A stretch of 29,356 nt of DNA from a virus (IMGVR_UViG_3300025889_000669:1-29356), one strand, 5' to 3'. Shown: positions 2,634 to 12,757, counted from the stretch's first letter. Made by a program: numbers and translations. The notes: generated from the letters alone by a model not told the origin.

Positions 2634-3707
2634 ATGGCAAACAGTACATCAAGCTTTTTAAAACTTACCGTACAAGCAACTGGTGAAAACTCAGGTACGT
2701 GGGGTACAATTACAAACACAAACTTATTAATTCTTGAGCAAGCATCAGCTGGTTATGAAGCAGTAACACTTAATGCTACAACAGGAGCAACTTTAGTTGC
2801 AACAAATGGTGCTGTTTCAAACGCTAAAAATATTGCGTTAGAATTAACAGGAACAATTACAGGAGCAGTAGATGTTATTGTTCCAGTAACAGAAAAATAT
2901 TACATTATTAAAAACTCAACATCTGGAGCTCACGCAGTAACAGTTAAAGTATCAGGTCAAACTGGTGTAACTTGGGCTGCTGCTGATAAAGGAACTAAAG
3001 TTCTTTATGGTAACGGAACAGATATGGTTAACTCTAATTTAGAGAAATTATCATCTGACTACGCTCCTCAACTTTCAGCTAACTTAGACGCAAATGGTCA
3101 AAACATTTTAATCGATGGTGCTAATTTTATCGGAGATGAAAATGGTAATGAACAAATTATATTTGCAACTACAGGATCAGCTGTAAATGAATTTTCAGTA
3201 ACTAACGCTGCAGCAGGAAATGCTCCAGCATTAGCAGCTACTGGTGGTGACACAAACATTGATATGACTTTGACTCCAAAAGGAATTGGTAGAGTTGTAT
3301 TAAATGGTGGTGGTAAAATCCAACAGCTTGCAGAAAAAGTTACAACATCTGCAACAGCAGCCACTGGAACAATTAACTACGATGTTATTACACAAGCAGT
3401 TTTAAATTACACAACTGATGCAGCAGCAAACTTCACAGTAAACTTAAGAGGAGATGGATCTAATTCATTAAACTCTATTATGGATACAGGTGAATCTATT
3501 ACTGTAGCATTCATTGTTAAAAATGGTGCTTCACCATATTACAATAATGCTTTTCAAATTGATGGATCTTCTGTAACTCCAGAATGGCAAGGTGGATCAG
3601 CACCTTCAGCTGGAAATGCTAACTCATTAGATGTTTATACATACACAGCGATTAAGACTGGTGATGCTACGTTCACAGCGTTAGCAGCTCAGACTCAATT
3701 CGCTTAA
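2634..3707 (+). CDS. Tail fibre protein (GENSGTWG N-terminal type)
   Basis: 357 residues. The N-terminus SFLKLTVQATGENSGTWG, then NTNLLILEQA, is a signature I recognise from fibre proteins of pelagiphages and cyanophages, probably the part that docks to the tail. The rest is low-complexity Ala/Thr/Asn/Gly beta sequence with an NFIGDENGNEQIIFA-type segment (about 164-178) and DMTLTPKGIGRVVL (209-222), typical of fibre shafts built from short repeats. No peptidase or chaperone domain is visible. A weak AAGGA site precedes the ATG. It lies between the Trp-repeat protein and the glycine-rich adhesin, so this is probably the fibre locus that sets host range. Confidence 0.75.
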   Translation: MANSTSSFLKLTVQATGENSGTWGTITNTNLLILEQASAGYEAVTLNATTGATLVATNGAVSNAKNIALELTGTITGAVDVIVPVTEKYYIIKNSTSGAHAVTVKVSGQTGVTWAAADKGTKVLYGNGTDMVNSNLEKLSSDYAPQLSANLDANGQNILIDGANFIGDENGNEQIIFATTGSAVNEFSVTNAAAGNAPALAATGGDTNIDMTLTPKGIGRVVLNGGGKIQQLAEKVTTSATAATGTINYDVITQAVLNYTTDAAANFTVNLRGDGSNSLNSIMDTGESITVAFIVKNGASPYYNNAFQIDGSSVTPEWQGGSAPSAGNANSLDVYTYTAIKTGDATFTALAAQTQFA

Positions 3708-3725: not shown

Positions 3726-4589
3726 ATGCCAATATTAGGATCATTTGGAGCAGCAGCAAAAGGCGGCTTTGGCCGAGGCGGAAAAGTTATTGAATATCCT
3801 TACGATGCAGAAATGTTAATCATTGCTGGCGGAGGAGAAGGCGGCAATTATAGAGGTGGAGGTGGCGGAGCAGGAGGCTTTCGAACTTCTACGCAGACAA
3901 TCTCTGAATCATTTGATATTACTGTTACTGTCGGATCTGGTGGATCTGGTGGTGCTACAATAGGAACATCTGGTGGGTCTTCTGCAATAAGTGGACCAAA
4001 CTTAACTACAATTACATCTGCCGGAGGCGGCGGAGGCTCTACGGCCGCTACACCTGGACAATCTGGTGGTTCTGGTAGTGGCGCTGGAGGAAATAATACA
4101 CCTCAATCAGGAGGAGCTGGTAATACTCCAAGCACAACTCCATCTCAAGGAAACCCTGGAGGTGGAAATAATAATTCAAGTTACTCTGGTGGTGGCGGAG
4201 GAGGCATTGGCGGTACTGGAGGAAATGCTGGAGGCCCTGGAGGATCTGGAGGAGCTGGTACTGCAAATTCAATAACTGGTGCATCTGTAACATACGCTGG
4301 AGGCGGCGGAGGCGGAGGCGCTGAAATCGGAAACGCTGGAGGCCCTGGAGGATCAGGTGGTGGCGGAGCTGGCGGAGGTCCTGGCCAACCTAATACTCCT
4401 GGAACCGATGGTTTAGGTGGCGGTGGCGGAGGAGCCCAAAATGGCGGTGGCGACGGTGGAGACGGAGTCGTTATTATAAAATTACCTACAGAAAAATATA
4501 GTGGAAAAAAAACAGGTTCACCAACAGTAACTGAGTCTGGTTCAGATACTATAATGACATTTAATGGAGCAGGGACATATACAACATAA
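3726..4589 (+). CDS. Glycine-rich tail fibre adhesin
   Basis: 287 residues. The pattern AEMLIIAGGGEGG (29-41) followed by long Gly tracts up to about residue 250, then DGVVIIKLP, is the Gly-rich domain found in phage tail-tip proteins. In phage S16 gp38 a related glycine-rich region forms packed polyglycine helices that display receptor-binding loops. By analogy this would contact the host surface. The C-terminus (YSGKKTGSPTVTESGSDT, FNGAGTYTT) recurs in marine phage fibres. Base composition is unusual: GGC and GGA codons raise G+C well above the neighbours, and a 20-nt repeat lies inside. Its stop overlaps the next start (TAATG). Confidence 0.75.
   Translation: MPILGSFGAAAKGGFGRGGKVIEYPYDAEMLIIAGGGEGGNYRGGGGGAGGFRTSTQTISESFDITVTVGSGGSGGATIGTSGGSSAISGPNLTTITSAGGGGGSTAATPGQSGGSGSGAGGNNTPQSGGAGNTPSTTPSQGNPGGGNNNSSYSGGGGGGIGGTGGNAGGPGGSGGAGTANSITGASVTYAGGGGGGGAEIGNAGGPGGSGGGGAGGGPGQPNTPGTDGLGGGGGGAQNGGGDGGDGVVIIKLPTEKYSGKKTGSPTVTESGSDTIMTFNGAGTYTT
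4227..4354 (+). repeat. 20-nt direct repeat in the glycine-rich gene
   Basis: GCTGGAGGCCCTGGAGGATC occurs identically at 4227-4246 and 4335-4354, 108 nt (36 codons) apart, both encoding part of NAGGPGGSGG. It is a substrate for in-frame expansion or contraction of the adhesin. Confidence 0.85.
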
Positions 4590-5071
4590 TGGCTTATTTT
4601 TCTAAATTAGATTCTAACAATAAAGTAATTGATTCAATAAAAGTTGAAGACGATGTAGTAACTCAAGATGGCTCTCTTAATGAAGAAAAAGGTCAGGCTT
4701 TTTTAAGAAAAATTTTTAATGAACCCGATGCTGTTTGGAAAAGATCAGTAAAAGGAATGTGTCTAGGAGCTCATAAACATGGTGGTGAAATTTTTAGAAA
4801 AAATTATGGAGGAATAGGTAGTACCTATGATGCAGCTCGAGATGCTTTTATACCTCCTAAAACTTTAAACCCTGATGGAACTGAATCTACTACAGTAGTT
4901 TTTAATGAAGACACATGCGGTTGGGATTACCCTGTTTCAAGACCCACAGAACCTGCAAACTCTGTTTGGGAGTATGGAGATATAGGCGGCTGGCAAAGAA
5001 TTGATGAAGTCTCTGAAGGTAAAACATGGCAATACAACTCTACTGATGGTTGGGTAGAAGTAGATATTTAA
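4589..5071 (+). CDS. Small conserved fibre-associated protein of marine phages
   Basis: 160 residues. The segment IFRKNYGGIGSTYDAARDAF (78-97), then IPPKTLNPDG, is a hallmark of a short protein family carried next to tail fibre genes in many cyanophages and pelagiphages. A Trp-containing C-terminus (CGWDYPVSRP, VWEYGDIGGWQRIDE, WQYNSTDGWVEVDI) completes the match. Role unknown; a capping or accessory tail component is plausible. It starts inside the stop of the adhesin gene and ends 3 nt from the convergent oxygenase gene on the other strand, with no obvious terminator between. Confidence 0.65.
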   Translation: MAYFSKLDSNNKVIDSIKVEDDVVTQDGSLNEEKGQAFLRKIFNEPDAVWKRSVKGMCLGAHKHGGEIFRKNYGGIGSTYDAARDAFIPPKTLNPDGTESTTVVFNEDTCGWDYPVSRPTEPANSVWEYGDIGGWQRIDEVSEGKTWQYNSTDGWVEVDI

Positions 5072-5074
5072 CAA

Positions 5075-5647
5075 TTATTTAAAATTTTTCCCTGATATCC
5101 AAGCAACTAAAGAATTTCTTTCACCTTTTGAAACTGGTGTAACTTCGTGCAATACATAACTTGGAAACATAACTAAAGTACCTTGTTCTTTAGACATTGG
5201 TAAAGGTTTATCTTCAAAATATAAATTTAAATCACCTCCTTTATATTTTTTAGGTTCGGTTAATTGGACAGATAAAGATAACTTTCTTATTTTTGTATTG
5301 GTGCCTTTATCAACATGTTTTCCATAATATGATCCGACAGCTTTATAATTAGTAAATTGTAATCCCTCTAAAAAACCCTCTACATCAAATTTAAAAAATT
5401 GATCATTTAAACTTTGTGATATGTCAGTGAGTCTTTTAAAAATCCAATCTGTTTTTTCATCTGGTTGAATCCAATTAATTTTACTTTTTCTATACTTTTT
5501 TGTTTTTGCAGGATTAGCAACTTGTCCTGTGATTAAATTTTTTTTACCTAATTCGATAATTAAATCGCATTCTTCTTTTGAAAAAGCGCTCTTCCAATAA
5601 GCCCATTCATGAACGTGATCTAATTTAAATGGCCAATTACTACTCAT
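5075..5647 (-). CDS. 2-oxoglutarate/Fe(II)-dependent oxygenase (PiuC/prolyl-hydroxylase-like)
   Basis: 190 residues with a complete canonical site: YYGKHVDKG gives His111 and Asp113, FPSYVLHEVTPV gives the distal His167, and GERNSLVAWI gives Arg177, the usual 2OG-binding arginine. The core GGDLNLYF and GTLVMFPS strands are also typical of the double-stranded beta-helix fold. Such enzymes hydroxylate proteins or small molecules using O2, Fe(II) and 2-oxoglutarate. The substrate is unknown. It is the second gene of a two-gene minus-strand operon; its ATG overlaps the stop of the upstream gene by one base (TAATG). Confidence 0.85.
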   Translation of the reverse strand: MSSNWPFKLDHVHEWAYWKSAFSKEECDLIIELGKKNLITGQVANPAKTKKYRKSKINWIQPDEKTDWIFKRLTDISQSLNDQFFKFDVEGFLEGLQFTNYKAVGSYYGKHVDKGTNTKIRKLSLSVQLTEPKKYKGGDLNLYFEDKPLPMSKEQGTLVMFPSYVLHEVTPVSKGERNSLVAWISGKNFK

Positions 5648-6141
5648 TAAAAATAATTAAAGTTTATGTTAAATCTTGCTTTTGCATTTGTACAAGTTGA
5701 ACTAGCATGAGGTTTATTTGCATCAAATAATAATAATCTATTTTCAATAGAATCAATTTTTTTTCCATTATTTAATGAAGTAAAACCATCACACGTATTT
5801 AATGAAAATATTGCTCCTTGGTGTTCGAAGTCATAATCAATGTGTTTTTTGTTAATTCTTATTTTTTCTGTAGAAGGATAACAGTTGCATTTAATTCTTA
5901 TCAAAGATTTTATTTTTAATTTATTAAAAAATATTTTTTTAATGAAAGGATAAATGGAGCTATTACTTGTATCTTCGTAAATAAGATGAGTAAAATAACT
6001 TGTAGAATCATTTTTAGCATGATTTCCATTTATTAAATCTTGAAAATACCAAGAAAACTCTTTGTTAATGATAGAGTTTTTTAATGTAATAAAATCTTCT
6101 TTATGAAGAAAATTATCTATTATTTTATATTTTAATTTCAT
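5647..6141 (-). CDS. 2OG-Fe(II) oxygenase-like protein
   Basis: 164 residues, starting MKLKYKIIDNFLHKEDF, an opening common to small phage 2OG oxygenases. Putative ligands are His100 and Asp102 in NKKHIDYDF, distal His145 in DANKPHASS, and Arg156 in AKARFNINFNYF. The strand ENRLLLFDA before the distal His matches the family. It is AT-rich and lies under the minus-strand arm of the divergent promoter at 6148-6197, with a purine-rich site AAGAGAGA just before the ATG. Substrate unknown. Confidence 0.75.
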   Translation of the reverse strand: MKLKYKIIDNFLHKEDFITLKNSIINKEFSWYFQDLINGNHAKNDSTSYFTHLIYEDTSNSSIYPFIKKIFFNKLKIKSLIRIKCNCYPSTEKIRINKKHIDYDFEHQGAIFSLNTCDGFTSLNNGKKIDSIENRLLLFDANKPHASSTCTNAKARFNINFNYF

Positions 6142-6147
6142 TCTCTC

Positions 6148-6197
6148 TTGCTTTTTAAACTATACACTATTATAGTATATTACATATAAAGATGCAA
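6148..6197. promoter_or_regulatory. Back-to-back divergent promoters with overlapping -10 boxes
   Basis: Plus strand: TTGCTT at 6148-6153, 17 bp, TATAGT at 6171-6176. Minus strand: TTGCAT at 6197-6192, 17 bp, TATAAT at 6174-6169. The two -10 boxes overlap by 4 bp, so only one polymerase could open the region at a time. The predicted plus start is only about 10 nt from the ATG at 6192, which lacks a ribosome site, so that transcript may be nearly leaderless. The same 50-bp geometry occurs at 22419-22468. In AT-rich DNA -10-like strings arise by chance, so this remains a prediction. Confidence 0.5.
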
Positions 6198-6764
6198 GAG
6201 ACATTTATAGAAAGCTATCAAATAGACACAGAAGTTTGTAAAGAACTTATAAAATATCATAAGAAAAATAAGGAGTATAAACGACCTGGAGTTGCTTATG
6301 ATACAGATGTAAAAAACACTGCAGTAAATACAGATATTAAAGAGTCAATTGATGTTACTTTTTTTAATATGTCTAGTAATAAAACTATAAAAAAATATTT
6401 TTCAGAGTTGAGTAAATGCGTACGTCAATATGTTAGTAAATATAAATTAGGAAGATATCATACCTATGATTCAAATTTAATACAACACTATCCACCAGGG
6501 GGTGGTTTTAAAGTTTGGCACTGTGAAAGATATGTTGGATATGTGCCAGGTCAATTCATAGCTCAAAGAGGACTCGTTTATATGACGTATTTAAATGATG
6601 TTACTGATAAGGGAGAAACTGAATTTTATTATCAAAAAGTTAAAGTTAAACCTAAAATAGGTAAAACTTTAATATGGCCAACTGATTTTACTCATTTACA
6701 CCGAGGTATTCCATCACCTACTCAAGAAAAATATATTGTAACAGGTTGGTTCATATTAGTTTAA
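6192..6764 (+). CDS. 2OG-Fe(II) oxygenase-like protein with HxE motif
   Basis: 190 residues. The segment IQHYPPGGGFKVWHCE places His110 and Glu112 as the metal pair (HxE rather than HxD). FTHLHRGIPSP gives the distal His (168 or 170), followed by KYIVTGWFIL, where Lys180 stands where Arg or Lys usually binds 2-oxoglutarate. YLNDVTDKGETEFYYQ is the usual strand-turn with GxTxF. The family is frequent in marine phages and SAR11-like bacteria. It opens the three-gene plus-strand arm of the cluster and ends one base before the next ATG. Substrate unknown. Confidence 0.75.
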   Translation: MQETFIESYQIDTEVCKELIKYHKKNKEYKRPGVAYDTDVKNTAVNTDIKESIDVTFFNMSSNKTIKKYFSELSKCVRQYVSKYKLGRYHTYDSNLIQHYPPGGGFKVWHCERYVGYVPGQFIAQRGLVYMTYLNDVTDKGETEFYYQKVKVKPKIGKTLIWPTDFTHLHRGIPSPTQEKYIVTGWFILV

Positions 6765-6765
6765 T

Positions 6766-7368
6766 ATGATGTTATTACATAATATTCCTATCATACATAA
6801 TTCTATTTTTTTATATCAATTAGATATAAGAAAAAATTATAATAAAATATTTGAAAAACAAAAAATAAAACAAGAAGCAAATGGTTTTTTAACTTATTCA
6901 AGCACTGAATATAATATTTTAAATGAATTTAAAGATTTAAAAAAAGAATGTGAAAAATCAGTAGGTTCATTAATCACTGATAAATTATCTTTTAAAGATA
7001 ATAACTTTAAAATTTTTAATAGTTGGATTACTAAAACAAAACCTAAAGGTTATTCTGAACCACATACACATTCAAACTCTTGGATTAGTGGTGTATACTA
7101 TCCTAAGTTCTCTGAAGATTTTAAAATTAGATTTTATAATGATTTTTTAAATCCCTTTCATACAAAAGTAAAAAATTATAACATCTATAATTCTAAATAT
7201 TGGGATATAACTCCAATGTCAAATTGTCTTGTATTATTCTTTAGTAATATGAGACATAATATTTTACCCAATAATTCAAAAGAAGATAGATACTCTTTGG
7301 CTTTTAACGTTTTACCCAATGGTTCTTTTGGTACTGAAGATTCTTTTTTAAAATTAAATATAAAATAA
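6766..7368 (+). CDS. Putative 2OG-Fe(II) oxygenase (2OG-FeII_Oxy_5-like)
   Basis: 200 residues, very AT-rich. The pattern NSWITKTKPKGYSEPHTH with SNSWISGVYYP (His100, His102) matches the family whose proteins start the metal site with HxH. Distal His164 lies in FFSNMRHNILP and Arg175 in EDRYSLAFNVLP. YNIYNSKYWD (138-147) is nearly repeated in the next gene. ATG at 6766 and a second ATG at 6769 are both possible. Its stop overlaps the next ATG. Probable tandem paralogue of the following gene; substrate unknown. Confidence 0.7.
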   Translation: MMLLHNIPIIHNSIFLYQLDIRKNYNKIFEKQKIKQEANGFLTYSSTEYNILNEFKDLKKECEKSVGSLITDKLSFKDNNFKIFNSWITKTKPKGYSEPHTHSNSWISGVYYPKFSEDFKIRFYNDFLNPFHTKVKNYNIYNSKYWDITPMSNCLVLFFSNMRHNILPNNSKEDRYSLAFNVLPNGSFGTEDSFLKLNIK

Positions 7369-7964
7369 TGAACGTATTAAATTTAAGAGCTATTCCTATA
7401 GCAATTTCAAAACTAGACTATTCTTTAAATAAAAAACAAAAAGAATTTATAATGAAACAAAATTATCAAGAAGGAAAAAATGTAAAAGTTTCTAAGAGTA
7501 ATTATATCTTTAATAATAAAATATTTAAAAATATTAAAAATCTTTTTGATAAAAAAGTAGATCAGTATTTAAAAGAAGTTTTACAAATTAAAAATGAAGT
7601 CTATGTTACTCAAAGTTGGACAACCATTAATGATAACACTGTTCATCATTCTCATAGTCACAAAGGAGCTTTTTTAAGTATTGTTTTTTATCCAGAAAGC
7701 AAAGGAAAAAATACTATTTATTTTGAATTAAATAAAAGCAGTATTCAAGAAGCATTTGATTTTTCATATAATCCAATTCAATATAATATATATAATAGTG
7801 AAACTTGGCATCTTCCTACAAATGAAAAAGATTTATTTATATTCCCTGGTTGGATAAGACATCATTCAGTAAATGAAGGGAGCAAAATTATGGTAGGAGC
7901 AAATTACTTTTTAAAAGGTAATTTAGGAGAAAAAAATAGAAAAGATTTTCTCTATTTAAAATAA
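7368..7964 (+). CDS. Putative 2OG-Fe(II) oxygenase, paralogue of the upstream gene
   Basis: 198 residues. TQSWTTINDNTVHHSHSHKG aligns with the preceding protein's HxH region; His94 and His96 are the likely metal ligands within a His-rich run (93-98). YNIYNSETWH (139-148) repeats its YNIYNS motif. FIFPGWIRHHSVNEG gives the distal His (165 or 166), but the 2OG-binding basic residue would be Lys173 rather than Arg. The gene overlaps the upstream stop (AATGA) and is equally AT-rich. Activity is less certain than for the canonical member at 5075-5647. Confidence 0.65.
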   Translation: MNVLNLRAIPIAISKLDYSLNKKQKEFIMKQNYQEGKNVKVSKSNYIFNNKIFKNIKNLFDKKVDQYLKEVLQIKNEVYVTQSWTTINDNTVHHSHSHKGAFLSIVFYPESKGKNTIYFELNKSSIQEAFDFSYNPIQYNIYNSETWHLPTNEKDLFIFPGWIRHHSVNEGSKIMVGANYFLKGNLGEKNRKDFLYLK

Positions 7965-7976
7965 TAGGTATTTAAA

Positions 7977-8312
7977 TTGGACTCAATTGTAAAAAGATTT
8001 TCTGAGCATTTAGAGTCTATAGAGTATCCTAAAAGTAAAACATCTTGGAATATTGCAGGTATTATAAAAGGTCAAAATGCCTTTTACAGATTTGATATTA
8101 GAGAAATGATAAAACTGTCAGATGGCACACCTGCTCAAAAATTTAAAACAAATATTAAAGCTGATAAAATGGTATTAGAAATAGGTAATAAGTGGATTAT
8201 TCTAGATTTAGAAGAACTACATAATTACTTAAAAAAGAATAGGTTAAAAAAGGTCTACGTAAATGATTTGATACCTAAGCTAGAATGGACTATATTTTTG
8301 CCTAAAAACTAG
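7977..8312 (+). CDS. Conserved hypothetical protein upstream of the tail nozzle gene
   Basis: 111 residues beginning (M)DSIVKRFSEHLESIEYP. No ATG lies between the in-frame stop at 7965-7967 and residue 44, so a TTG start at 7977 is chosen. The protein is mixed alpha/beta, with KTSWNIAGIIKGQNAFYRFD (22-41) and a basic C-terminal half. I recall similar short proteins before the nozzle gene in uncultured marine phages but no function. No domain is recognised. Confidence 0.55.
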   Translation: MDSIVKRFSEHLESIEYPKSKTSWNIAGIIKGQNAFYRFDIREMIKLSDGTPAQKFKTNIKADKMVLEIGNKWIILDLEELHNYLKKNRLKKVYVNDLIPKLEWTIFLPKN

Positions 8313-8318
8313 TATAAT
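8313..8318 (+). promoter_or_regulatory. Candidate -10 box placed for a leaderless transcript
   Basis: TATAAT at 8313-8318 sits 7 bp before the ATG at 8326, in TAGTATAATAGATCCC. Transcription would start close to the A of the ATG, and the gene has no Shine-Dalgarno sequence. No convincing -35 box is seen at 17 bp. It may be chance. Confidence 0.25.
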
Positions 8319-8325
8319 AGATCCC

Positions 8326-10284
8326 ATGGCATTAAAAGAAGTAAAATTTCAAGCAGGTATTGATAAACAAAGCACGCCTTCAGCCGCTGCAGGTAAATGG
8401 GTTGATAGTGATTTTGTTAGATTTAGATATGGAGTGCCTGAAAAAATAGGTGGTTGGGATCAATTAACCACTGCTAATAATACTCTTCCTGGTGTAGCTA
8501 GGGCTCAACATACATTTACTAGTTTAAATGGTACAAAATTTTCGGCTATTGGAACAAGCTCAGGTTTATTTATTTTTAGTGGTGAAAGATTTTATGATAT
8601 TACCCCTTTAGCTGGATCTCCAGTTTCAGGAGGAACCTTTACTACTTCTGCAGCAGCTGGTTCTACAGTAACGATAAATTCTACAGGTCACAGTATTCTA
8701 GTTGGAGATTACGTGGTATTTACTTCTGTATCTGTGGCTGGATCTACAACACTTACAGCACCTGATTTTCAAACCTACGCTTTTGAAGTATTAACCGTCC
8801 CTAACGCAAACTCATTTACTATAAGTTTATTGAACCCTGCTGCAGGTGTAACGACAGCGGAAGGTAATTCCGGAATGACGGCTCAAGGATCATTTAACTA
8901 TCAAAGATACATAAGACCAGGACCCACTTTTCAAACTTTAGGTTTTGGTTGGAGTACTTACCAATGGGGTCAGGAAGCTTGGGGAGATGCTAGATCAACT
9001 TCAAACGTAACGCTAGATCCGGCTAACTGGTCTTTAGACCATGCGGGTAATACTTTAATTGCAACACTTAGAAATGGAAATACTTTTCAATGGAATTCTG
9101 CTGGAGCTTTAGCAACTAGAGCCACTGTAATTGCAGGGGTAGGCAGTGAAGTTAATATGGTTTCAACGTTATCTTTATTCTCAGACAGAGATAGACATTT
9201 ATTTCAGTTTGGTGCTTTAACGGATATGACTGATGCAACGACACAAGACCCTATGTTTATTAGATTTACGAATCAAGAAACATTAAACGTATACACACCA
9301 ACAGCAACAAACACTGCTGGTACATTTAGATTAGATACGGGAAACAGAATTACTGCTGCTGTTCAAGGTAAAGACTATGTTTTAATTTTAACAGATCAAG
9401 CTGCTTATGTAGCTCAATTTGTAGGACCACCATTTACATTTAGTATTAGACAAGTGGGGACTAACTGCGGATGTTTAGGACAACACGCTGTTGTTTTTGC
9501 TCAAGGTGCTGTTTACTGGATGGGTCAAGCAGGTGGGTTTTTTGCATTTGATGGAACAGTAAAACAAATACCTTGTTTAGTAGAAGACTTTGTATTTACT
9601 ACAGGTGATGGTAATCCAGGTCTTAATTTTGATGCCAATGAAATTATTTATGCAGGCCACAATAGTTTATACACTGAAGTAAATTGGTTTTATCCATCAA
9701 AAAATTCACTACAAGTTGATAGATGTGTGACTTATAATTATGCAGAAAATAGCTGGAATACAAGTACATTAGATAGAACCACTTATGTAGACGCAGCTGT
9801 TTTTGAAAGACCTTATGCTACTGATTATATTCCAAACGGATCTACAGATTCTAATAGTCCTTCGGATACCCCTTTCTTTCCAATATCAGGAATTACTAAC
9901 AGAGATGGGGCCACAGTTTTATATGAACATGAAAAAGGTGTAGATCAAGTTAACAGCACGGGTACATCTGCTATTCAAGGGTTTATAAGATCTGGAGATT
10001 TTGACATTGCTGATGGTGAATTTTTTGCTTCAGTAAGCAGGTTTATTCCTGACTATAAAGAGATTGTGGGTAATAACCAAGTTACTTTATTTATATCAGA
10101 CTATCCATCTGACACTCAGACTAGTTCACCTTTAGGACCCTTTACAGTTACCTCAACCACTGATAAGATAGATACTAGAGCAAGAGGAAGATTAGTAAGT
10201 GTGAAATTTGAAAACACGGCAGTAGGAGAGTCTTGGAGATATGGTTCTCTTAGATTGGATACAAGACCAGATGGTAGAAGATAA
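8326..10284 (+). CDS. Tail tube nozzle / stabilisation protein
   Basis: 652 residues. The opening KEVKFQAGIDKQSTPSAAAG, then KWVDSDFVRFRYGVPEKIGG, is typical of marine-podovirus nozzle proteins, functionally like P22 gp10 or T7 gp12, which close the short tail and carry fibres. A body of beta-propeller-like strands follows, with YVLILTDQAAYVAQF, QGAVYWMGQAGGFFAFDGT and a C-terminal AEN-SW segment (YNYAENSWNTST). Residues 206-220 (GFGWSTYQWGQEAWG) resemble the Trp repeats of the tail protein at 1251-2597, suggesting a shared module. The gene lacks a ribosome site and ends in TAATG with the next small gene. Confidence 0.7.
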   Translation: MALKEVKFQAGIDKQSTPSAAAGKWVDSDFVRFRYGVPEKIGGWDQLTTANNTLPGVARAQHTFTSLNGTKFSAIGTSSGLFIFSGERFYDITPLAGSPVSGGTFTTSAAAGSTVTINSTGHSILVGDYVVFTSVSVAGSTTLTAPDFQTYAFEVLTVPNANSFTISLLNPAAGVTTAEGNSGMTAQGSFNYQRYIRPGPTFQTLGFGWSTYQWGQEAWGDARSTSNVTLDPANWSLDHAGNTLIATLRNGNTFQWNSAGALATRATVIAGVGSEVNMVSTLSLFSDRDRHLFQFGALTDMTDATTQDPMFIRFTNQETLNVYTPTATNTAGTFRLDTGNRITAAVQGKDYVLILTDQAAYVAQFVGPPFTFSIRQVGTNCGCLGQHAVVFAQGAVYWMGQAGGFFAFDGTVKQIPCLVEDFVFTTGDGNPGLNFDANEIIYAGHNSLYTEVNWFYPSKNSLQVDRCVTYNYAENSWNTSTLDRTTYVDAAVFERPYATDYIPNGSTDSNSPSDTPFFPISGITNRDGATVLYEHEKGVDQVNSTGTSAIQGFIRSGDFDIADGEFFASVSRFIPDYKEIVGNNQVTLFISDYPSDTQTSSPLGPFTVTSTTDKIDTRARGRLVSVKFENTAVGESWRYGSLRLDTRPDGRR

Positions 10285-10783: not shown

Positions 10784-10961
10784 TATAACAAAGATTAAGT
10801 GTATAACTAAATATACTTATCGTAATAAAAAGACAGGAGAAATCTACAAAGAGAAAGTAGAAGGTCCTGACATTGTGGTTGATTGTGAAGTTACAGTTGA
10901 CCCTAAGAATTTAGACTTATTTCAGAAAGTAATGAATAATGATAATAAATCCAACACCTAA
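10776..10961 (+). CDS. 61-residue hypothetical protein
   Basis: MDDITKIKCITKYTYRNKKT with an acidic and basic mix and VVDCEVTVDPKNLDLFQKVM in the second half. It overlaps the previous gene by 8 nt and the next by 23 nt, consistent with a coupled run of genes. No domain is recognised. Its small size and overlaps leave some doubt, but it fills the space between two supported genes in the right strand. Confidence 0.5.
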   Translation: MDDITKIKCITKYTYRNKKTGEIYKEKVEGPDIVVDCEVTVDPKNLDLFQKVMNNDNKSNT

Positions 10962-11886
10962 AGGTGGAACGGAATTACAACTAGAATATCTAACCCAATA
11001 CGTAGATCTTCAACTATTAAGTAAGGTACAAATTACAACATCTGTTCCAGAAAAAATTCCATTATCAAAAGATAAAATAAATATTCTTTGGCAGAAAAAT
11101 TCTTGGGATCAACCTAATATTTATCCTTGGTTTAAAGATAAAAAGAATCACACTAAATACGATTGGTATGTATTTAATTCACATTGGAACTTTGAAAATT
11201 TCACTAAAAAATTTGGTTTAGATAGAGGCAAGTGTATGATTATTAAGAACGGTATAAGTAAAATAGAACCTGCTCCTGTTTACGAAAAAGATAAACCTAT
11301 AAAAATTATACATCAAATAACCCCTTGGAGAGGGTTAAATGTATTGCTTGGGGCTATGCAATTAGTAAATCATCCCTTAATTACTTTAGATGTTTATTCA
11401 TCTACAGAGATTTATGGCAAAGCTTTTTATGAACAGAATGATAAAGAATATAAAGGTTTATACGAACAAGCTAAACAATTAAAAAATGTAAACTATATAG
11501 GTTATAAACCTAATACTTACATTAAAGAACATTTAAAAGATTATCATATGTTTGTTTACCCGAGTATCTGGGAAGAGACATCTTGTATTTCAGCTATAGA
11601 ATCTATGGCAGCAGGACTTTATACAATTGTGACAAACTTAGGGGCTTTAGCGGAAACATGTTCTGAGTTTGGTATTTACGTACCTTACGACAATAATCAT
11701 AGAAGGCTGGCTTTTAAATTTGCACAAGCTATTAAACAAGGGGCAGAAGCGATTACTCATAAACCTATTCAAGATCATTTAAAAAGACAGAGTGATTTTT
11801 ACAATCTGTATTATAGTTGGCCTAAACAAGCTGCAACTTGGACACAATTTTTAACTGGAATAACAAGTGATGCAAGAAAAATCTAA
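10939..11886 (+). CDS. Glycosyltransferase family 4-like (GT-B fold)
   Basis: 315 residues. The N-terminal PTPKGGTELQLEYL (5-18) resembles the Gly-rich loop of GT-B enzymes. The C-terminal part has KIIHQITPWRGLNVLLGAM (122-140), FVYPSIWEETSCISAIESMA (205-224) with the E-x7-E motif (Glu213, Glu221), and an AETC-type helix. Such enzymes transfer sugars from nucleotide donors. Targets could be virion proteins, phage DNA bases or host glycans; none is indicated. The N-terminal half is shorter than in typical GT4 enzymes. The chosen ATG gives GGTE close to the start. It overlaps the next gene by 17 nt. Confidence 0.75.
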   Translation: MIINPTPKGGTELQLEYLTQYVDLQLLSKVQITTSVPEKIPLSKDKINILWQKNSWDQPNIYPWFKDKKNHTKYDWYVFNSHWNFENFTKKFGLDRGKCMIIKNGISKIEPAPVYEKDKPIKIIHQITPWRGLNVLLGAMQLVNHPLITLDVYSSTEIYGKAFYEQNDKEYKGLYEQAKQLKNVNYIGYKPNTYIKEHLKDYHMFVYPSIWEETSCISAIESMAAGLYTIVTNLGALAETCSEFGIYVPYDNNHRRLAFKFAQAIKQGAEAITHKPIQDHLKRQSDFYNLYYSWPKQAATWTQFLTGITSDARKI

Positions 11887-12757
11887 TGAACCTATTTGGT
11901 TTGATAAGGAACCTGTGCAAACAATAGATCTAACAGAACAATTAAAAGGACATACATTACCACCTCAATCTAAGTATAGAATTATGGTGGCTACACCTGT
12001 ACACAGTGAAGTAGGTATTCATTATGTTAGAGCCTTACTTAAATTTCAAATGGCATGTATGACTAAGAATATACTAGTTAGTTTTCATCTTATTAAATCG
12101 TCTTTAGTCCAACAGGGTAGAAACATATGTGCTGCTGATTTTGTTTCTGATAAAGAGAACTACACCCATATGTTATTTATAGACTCAGACGTAGATTTTG
12201 AAACAAAAACAATATTTAAGATGTTAGAAAAGGATAGAGATATTATAGCTGCTCCTTATCCTATGAAGTTTATTAATCAAGGATCTGTTTATAGAAGAAT
12301 GAAAGATGAAGATTTTAAGAATGATAAAGATTTTTTAAAATATGGTTATACATTTCCTATCAAAGTACCAGATGTTTCAGCTATTGAAGTAACCGATGGA
12401 GAAACAGAGGTTACTCATGCACCAACGGGCTGCATGCTTATTAAAAGAGGTGTTATTGAAAAGATGATTAAAGCTTATCCAGATCTTGAAATAGTACAAG
12501 ATACTTATTTAAATGGTGAAAAAGTTAGAAGACCTAATTTTTATAACTTCTTTGATTGTGTACACGATCCTAAAACAAAACACTTCTACGGAGAAGACTT
12601 TGGTTTCTGTAAAAGATGGACTGAAATAGGGGGTAAAATATACCTTTATATTGATGATGAATTAGGCCATACTGGTGAATATAGGTACGCTGGTAGGTTC
12701 ATGGATGACCTTGTAGCTACAAGTAAAGTCGTTGACGAAGACGAAAAAATCAAATAA
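11870..12757 (+). CDS. Glycosyltransferase-like protein (GT-A fold)
   Basis: 295 residues from the ATG at 11870; a GTG three bases earlier is possible. RIMVATPVHSEVGIHYVRAL (37-56) opens a nucleotide-sugar-binding fold. THMLFIDSDVDFE (99-111) supplies the DxD metal site (Asp105, Asp107). THAPTGCMLIKRGVIEKM and FYGEDFGFCKRWTEIGG supply the acceptor-side acidic motif. It overlaps the preceding glycosyltransferase gene, so the two probably act on one pathway. Substrates unknown. About 55 nt separate it from the next gene. Confidence 0.75.
   Translation: MQEKSNEPIWFDKEPVQTIDLTEQLKGHTLPPQSKYRIMVATPVHSEVGIHYVRALLKFQMACMTKNILVSFHLIKSSLVQQGRNICAADFVSDKENYTHMLFIDSDVDFETKTIFKMLEKDRDIIAAPYPMKFINQGSVYRRMKDEDFKNDKDFLKYGYTFPIKVPDVSAIEVTDGETEVTHAPTGCMLIKRGVIEKMIKAYPDLEIVQDTYLNGEKVRRPNFYNFFDCVHDPKTKHFYGEDFGFCKRWTEIGGKIYLYIDDELGHTGEYRYAGRFMDDLVATSKVVDEDEKIK

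Follow-up and report, generated by a model that had tools for sequence, protein, structure and literature searches.

Why should one viral genome carry five adjacent genes that each appear to encode a 2-oxoglutarate (2OG)-Fe(II) oxygenase, next to a gene for a glycine (Gly)-rich, adhesin-like protein? The question is raised by the virus record IMGVR_UViG_3300025889_000669:1-29356, the whole 29,356 bases of which are referred to below as the window, and by five of its genes, here named A to E, which a preliminary description of the sequence had recognized as 2OG oxygenase-like, two leftward and three rightward. The five open reading frames (ORFs) are present as described, and all five predicted proteins possess the double-stranded beta-helix fold of the 2OG-Fe(II) oxygenases, as assigned by Pfam for A, C, D and E and by AlphaFold and Foldseek for B. 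The genes belong to a hypervariable cassette in which the start of the adhesin gene is conserved as an anchor and the adhesin body, a small partner protein and the full set of enzymes are replaced as a block.

Assignment to the fold rests on family matches, solved relatives and a predicted structure. The scores of A and C against PF13640 (57 and 36.3 bits, respectively) and those of D and E against PF13759 (61.7 and 30.6 bits, respectively) are all above the Pfam cut-off of 27 bits, and TIGR02466 matches D at 8.8e-19, above the cut-off of that model, and E at 3.5e-10, below it. The closest solved chain to A is the PKHD hydroxylase 3dkq (3.2e-9), and the family profile of D and E matches the solved chains 3bvc/2rg4 at about 1e-19. 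The Pfam search returned no family match for B, whose AlphaFold model (pLDDT 91.6, pTM 0.88) is matched by Foldseek to HIF prolyl hydroxylases (PHD2) and to algal and bacterial prolyl-4-hydroxylases (P4H) with a probability of 1.00. Iterated profiles started from any of the five proteins retrieve several of the other four, and B is connected to A, C, D and E by iterated profiles together with profile comparison. The preliminary description would have been abandoned had three or more of the proteins lacked the fold; Pfam and structure prediction found it in five of five.

The same description attributed a recognizable or probable metal triad with a distal histidine to each gene, which holds in the classical form, H-x-D/E...H with a basic 2OG residue, for A, B and C only. 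In the alignments, A has an H-x-D...H triad and an arginine, B has H100-x-D102...H145 and R156, and C uses a glutamate and a lysine (H-x-E...H and K). When B is aligned with 21 homologues, H100 and H145 are invariant and D102 and R156 are almost invariant. D and E fail the classical pattern, which leaves their fold membership unaffected; their family instead has H-x-H...H, invariant in 18 of 18 aligned phage members, with the second histidine of H-x-H occupying the Asp/Glu position in profile comparison. A three-histidine iron site is possible in D and E (PF13759/TIGR02466, 6766-7964).

The borders of the exchanged block are seen by comparing the window with loci of relatives. L004, L005 and L012 align with it at 87.6-92.8% DNA identity up to position 3772, within the adhesin gene at its codon 16; beyond this position homology vanishes except for short weak matches, and it returns at 7986-8245 with identities of 88.6-97.4%. 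L016 has the same left border at 75% identity. Among these four relatives, the left border lies at 3772-3774 and the right border varies from 7986 to 8284, while the first approximately 15 adhesin codons (MPI.GS.GA...GFG) are kept. Phage host-recognition clusters (HRCs) and metaviromic islands are recognized by adhesin genes in a hypervariable block that conserved structural genes enclose, and the cassette has this organization. Turnover of the enzymes is rapid: among 67 loci with Gly-rich adhesins, 52 of 56 pairs with backbone identities of 90-97% have no 2OG gene in common at a threshold of 60% identity or more, and 8 of 8 pairs with backbone identities of at least 97% do have one in common, the locus pairs in this comparison not being independent. 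The link of the enzymes to the Gly-rich adhesin, which the preliminary description noted as adjacency, thus goes further, as the swapped block includes the adhesin body, the gene order recurs in other phages (see below), and adhesin similarity correlates weakly with the fraction of shared 2OG genes at a given backbone identity (partial rank correlation 0.19, permutation p 0.001; dereplicated loci, adhesin glycines ignored).

For a wider survey, loci were retrieved with the two proteins that flank the cassette, a procedure blind to 2OG genes, and combined with three reference phages; 70 slots were covered from flank to flank. 2OG genes were called with iterated profiles (E<=1e-4), and H-x-D, H-x-E or H-x-H with a distal histidine is found in 230 of the 240 distinct proteins called; two 2OG families without a Pfam match were confirmed by structure prediction. 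At least one 2OG gene occurs in 66 of the 70 slots, at least three in 54 and at least five in 36, with a median of 5 and a maximum of 10. The slots contain 321 such genes in 349 kb vs. 8 in 569 kb of flanks, and all eight flank genes come from HTVC023P and 023Pt_psg01, in which the array stands elsewhere in the fibre region, where it immediately follows the Gly-rich adhesins and the partner. In HTVC027P-like relatives that have a collar-type adhesin, the 2OG genes are less numerous and more stable and lie chiefly on the minus strand. Throughout the lineage, the array is found next to either the adhesin or other fibre genes. The comparison of neighbourhoods that the preliminary description had called for therefore finds clustering to be the rule, and its view that five genes together are unusual is not borne out; their co-location had, moreover, already been published (PMC9599517).

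The 70 slots also contain tryptophan halogenases (9), carbamoyltransferases (7) and sulfotransferases (4). Examples within 2OG arrays are the tryptophan-halogenase-type genes beside adhesins at L018:8019-9176, L027:6428-7957 and L042:4921-6348, and NodU-type carbamoyltransferases and one sulfotransferase at L036:8233-9663, L053:1353-2882 and L048:4515-5258.

The arrangement is not confined to this lineage. The T4-like phages HTVC008M, S-SM1 and S-RSM4 have the order Gly-rich protein (29-33% Gly), partner and 2OG array, and their arrays include members labelled 'DNA endonuclease V' and 'ferrochelatase'. Of 11 phage records fetched via the partner protein, 9 have a Gly-rich ORF no more than a few kb away, but only 2 have a 2OG gene nearby. 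The adhesin and its partner are thus the core pair and the enzymes an optional layer, and the idea that the partner is always tied to 2OG genes was rejected.

Both labels are contradicted by the predicted structures. PHROGs labels the family of B, phrog_274, 'DNA endonuclease V', as are phrog_274 homologues in P-SSM2, S-SM1 and 023Pt_psg01. An identity of B with DNA endonuclease V or T4 denV was rejected on the missing Pfam match and the resemblance of its model to prolyl hydroxylases. The 'ferrochelatase' family, phrog_2954, is a common member of arrays in relatives (e.g., L084:8295-8915, L087:6287-6928, L056:1989-2663 and about 30 more loci) and has an invariant H-x-D...H; its predicted model (pLDDT 92.3) is matched by Foldseek to P4H and other 2OG enzymes. 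Two proteins so labelled had no match when scanned against Pfam, and the phrog_2954 profile matched none of 14 control genomes, including that of Escherichia coli, which possesses a true ferrochelatase. A HemH-type ferrochelatase was rejected on these grounds, and with it iron insertion by the partner enzyme, for the family tested. Hence, both families in PHROGs and GenBank appear to be 2OG-fold enzymes, and the 'ferrochelatase' label on phage phrog_2954 is likely a database-wide misannotation; a limited literature search found no paper correcting it. Co-occurrence of 2OG oxygenases with ferrochelatases has been stated (PMC9599517; PMC11561400), and a cyanophage 'Hyp. with ferrochetalase domain' (PMC3037559) carries the same kind of label. 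Both labels have already been used in ecological claims, and the published oxygenase-ferrochelatase pairings need rereading (PMC9599517; PMC11561400).

The preliminary description further placed the five genes in a small, compact genome, which is wrong. In tblastn comparisons, the tail stabilization protein of the window is 55% identical to that of Pelagibacter phage HTVC027P and 52% identical to that of HTVC023P, and the complete genomes of these relatives are 57.6-60.9 kb. Judged from these matches, the window most likely represents a fragment of a marine, SAR11-type pelagiphage genome of the HTVC023P type and the 57-61 kb size class.

Positions of the five enzymes and of the neighbouring genes are listed in Table 1. 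The sequence of the Gly-rich adhesin had no match in the PDB. Its partner may be a chaperone or an adhesin accessory, and phrog_7759 (MAHFA) homologues adjoin Gly-rich adhesins widely, in cyanophages, roseophages and Methylophilales phages. The small protein g111 was detected in 31 of the 70 slots, adjoining or within 2OG arrays, in many phages with Gly-rich adhesins. A scan of positions 4400-8500 for promoters and terminators gave nothing clearly exceeding shuffled expectation.

Table 1. The cassette of the window, its five 2OG-fold genes and its flanks.
Feature	Position	Strand	Remarks
Conserved tail protein ('up'), left cassette flank	2634-3707	+	75-99.8% DNA identity blocks in near relatives
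Gly-rich adhesin-like gene	3726-4589	+	287 aa, 36% Gly; PF21722 Gly_rich_2, 4.5e-12
Replaced block (hypervariable cassette)	3772-7986		DNA comparison with L004, L005, L012 and L016
Adhesin partner, MAHFA/MAYFA family	4589-5071	+	160 aa; phrog_7759, 8.2e-22
2OG oxygenase A	5075-5647	-	190 aa; prolyl-4-hydroxylase/PKHD-like; PF13640, 4e-15
2OG oxygenase B	5647-6141	-	164 aa; phrog_274 family; fold from AlphaFold/Foldseek
2OG oxygenase C	6192-6764	+	190 aa; PF13640, 1.1e-8; phrog_61, 2.8e-37
2OG-fold protein D	6766-7368	+	200 aa; TIGR02466/PF13759; PF13759, 9.5e-17
2OG-fold protein E	7368-7964	+	198 aa; PF13759, 4.6e-7
g111, conserved small protein	7977-8312	+	111 aa; no consistent Pfam family
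Tail/DNA stabilization protein, conserved right cassette flank	8326-10284	+	tblastn

What the enzymes act on is a matter of weighing. We tentatively propose, at somewhat less than an even chance, that the cassette serves host recognition and that A to E supply its enzymes. Besides the Gly-rich adhesin and its small partner, it would comprise a variable array of tailoring enzymes, for the most part 2OG-Fe(II) oxygenases, joined in some phages by a halogenase, a sulfotransferase or a carbamoyltransferase. Late in infection, these enzymes would add hydroxyl groups to side chains in the adhesin or in another fibre protein, and the exchange of enzyme sets along with adhesins would alter receptor specificity or shield the adhesin. 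We infer that they act on virion proteins, whether the adhesin or others, from the linkage and from the peptidyl-hydroxylase-like relatives of A and B. Action in series, as put forward in the preliminary description, is unlikely because the number, order, strand and family membership of the genes vary freely; the enzymes probably work in parallel, each at its own site, and not in one fixed pathway. Their joint exchange with the adhesin suggests, without proving it, that they chemically tune host recognition. Extended to marine phages at large, the proposal would be that they modify their own receptor-binding adhesins post-translationally and in a combinatorial manner: hydroxylases, halogenases, sulfotransferases and carbamoyltransferases, in interchangeable arrays that are exchanged with the adhesin, would diversify its surface chemistry beyond the 20 amino acids; we regard this generalization as rather unlikely.

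Several observations weigh against action on the adhesin. The correlation between adhesin similarity and shared 2OG genes is genuine but weak, and recombination in the flanks would bring unrelated passengers into a block replacement as well. Since 9 of the 11 records fetched via the partner have no 2OG gene nearby, the enzymes are not required for such adhesins generally, and in T4-like phages additional 2OG genes are dispersed through the genome. Adhesins beside a tryptophan halogenase contain almost no tryptophan (mean 0.44), so that adhesin tryptophan is not supported as the substrate of that enzyme. Overall, the pattern is strong, and function on a virion substrate is a tentative reading of it.

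The strong rival to an adhesin target is a host-surface target. The enzymes could modify the host envelope during infection, at surface glycans, lipids or a receptor protein, thereby excluding sister phages or stopping progeny from sticking to debris. Since enzyme and adhesin would then be directed at one receptor, the cassette would co-vary with the adhesin, and much of the same linkage is predicted. The NodU-type carbamoyltransferases, sulfotransferases and halogenases of the arrays suit sugars and small molecules as well as they suit proteins. Just past the right flank, at 10939-12757, the window encodes a group-1 glycosyltransferase and a second glycosyltransferase-like protein (phrog_1574), HTVC023P and HTVC027P have similarly positioned genes, and glycosyltransferases in the host-recognition island of pelagimyophages have been interpreted in this way (PMC7029224). 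On the other hand, virion genes stand on both sides of the arrays, and among solved structures A and B come closest to peptidyl-prolyl hydroxylases or PKHD enzymes, although likeness of fold does not fix the substrate. We consider an envelope target unlikely on balance.

Auxiliary metabolism, in which the enzymes consume or sense 2OG, iron or oxygen or oxidize small host metabolites, is improbable. Such roles have been proposed for cyanophages (2OG/NtcA; PMC3037559) and for pelagiphage 2OG-ferrochelatase partners (PMC9599517), and host iron-uptake transcripts rise under infection by HTVC027P (PMC12753301). However, a fixed metabolic role predicts neither the total replacement of the set at 90-97% likeness with conserved flanks nor its confinement to the fibre region, and the 2OG fold of the 'ferrochelatase' partner removes the argument from iron insertion.

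That the 2OG genes are passengers, carried without relation to the adhesin in a slot that is a recombination hot spot near it, is quite improbable. Their GC content is below that of backbone genes in 102 of 102 loci (mean 0.27 vs. 0.37), which suggests a separate gene pool. A low dN/dS among 2OG orthologues (median 0.13, 121 pairs), however, indicates that the genes are maintained by purifying selection, and the array accompanies the adhesin at other genome positions, in HTVC023P and 023Pt_psg01, and in unrelated phages. Modification or repair of nucleic acid, by TET/JBP- or AlkB-like oxidation of phage DNA or by a 'DNA endonuclease V', is very improbable even though it has been proposed for cyanophage 2OG proteins (PMC3037559) and DNA hypermodification genes are present in HTVC023P-type phages (PMC9599517), given that A to E have no TET/JBP or AlkB family match in Pfam at E<=1, B is not an endonuclease by fold, and location in the fibre module and rapid turnover misfit genome modification.

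Placing the array in a host-recognition cassette turns the long-standing question of its substrate into a direct test on the virions of two cultured phages. Several known systems resemble that of the window. Prolyl 4-hydroxylases, PHD2 and PKHD enzymes share with A and B the fold, the H-x-D...H triad and the basic 2OG residue, whereas B is only 10-20% identical to its Foldseek matches, and their substrates are not transferable. A limited literature search found nothing on a prolyl hydroxylase acting with collagen-like phage fibres, nor on Gly-rich tails of pelagiphages. Closest are the eight non-orthologous 2OG genes, often near each other and beside a 'ferrochelatase', described in HTVC023P-type pelagiphages (Wittmers et al., 2022; PMC9599517), which are arrays of the same gene families in the same phage lineage. 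A term search of the main text of that paper found no tail fiber, adhesin, halogenase or receptor, and the 'ferrochelatase' partner, there an iron enzyme, has a 2OG fold in our analysis. The 2OG, PrnA and carbamoyltransferase genes of T4-like cyanophages (PMC3037559) belong to the same enzyme families, and the arrays of S-SM1 and S-RSM4 adjoin a Gly-rich adhesin and partner as in the window; these phages, however, have many more 2OG genes elsewhere in the genome, and PMC3037559 treats the genes as host-like, scattered and connected with nitrogen metabolism. Metaviromic islands of marine phages, among whose genes Fe(II) oxygenases are counted together with host-recognition genes (PMC3909814), and the HRC of pelagimyophages (PMC7029224) likewise are hypervariable fibre or adhesin regions with conserved structural flanks, although the available portions of the two papers do not describe arrays of enzymes that constantly accompany a Gly-rich adhesin and its partner. 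Thus, the co-located 2OG genes of the lineage (PMC9599517), the Fe(II) oxygenases of islands (PMC3909814) and the pelagimyophage islands (PMC7029224) are already published. What appears to be new is the hypervariable cassette that includes the adhesin and starts about 15 codons into its gene, the addition of halogenases, sulfotransferases and carbamoyltransferases in relatives, the order of adhesin, partner and 2OG array in unrelated T4-like phages, and the 2OG fold of phrog_2954 and phrog_274.

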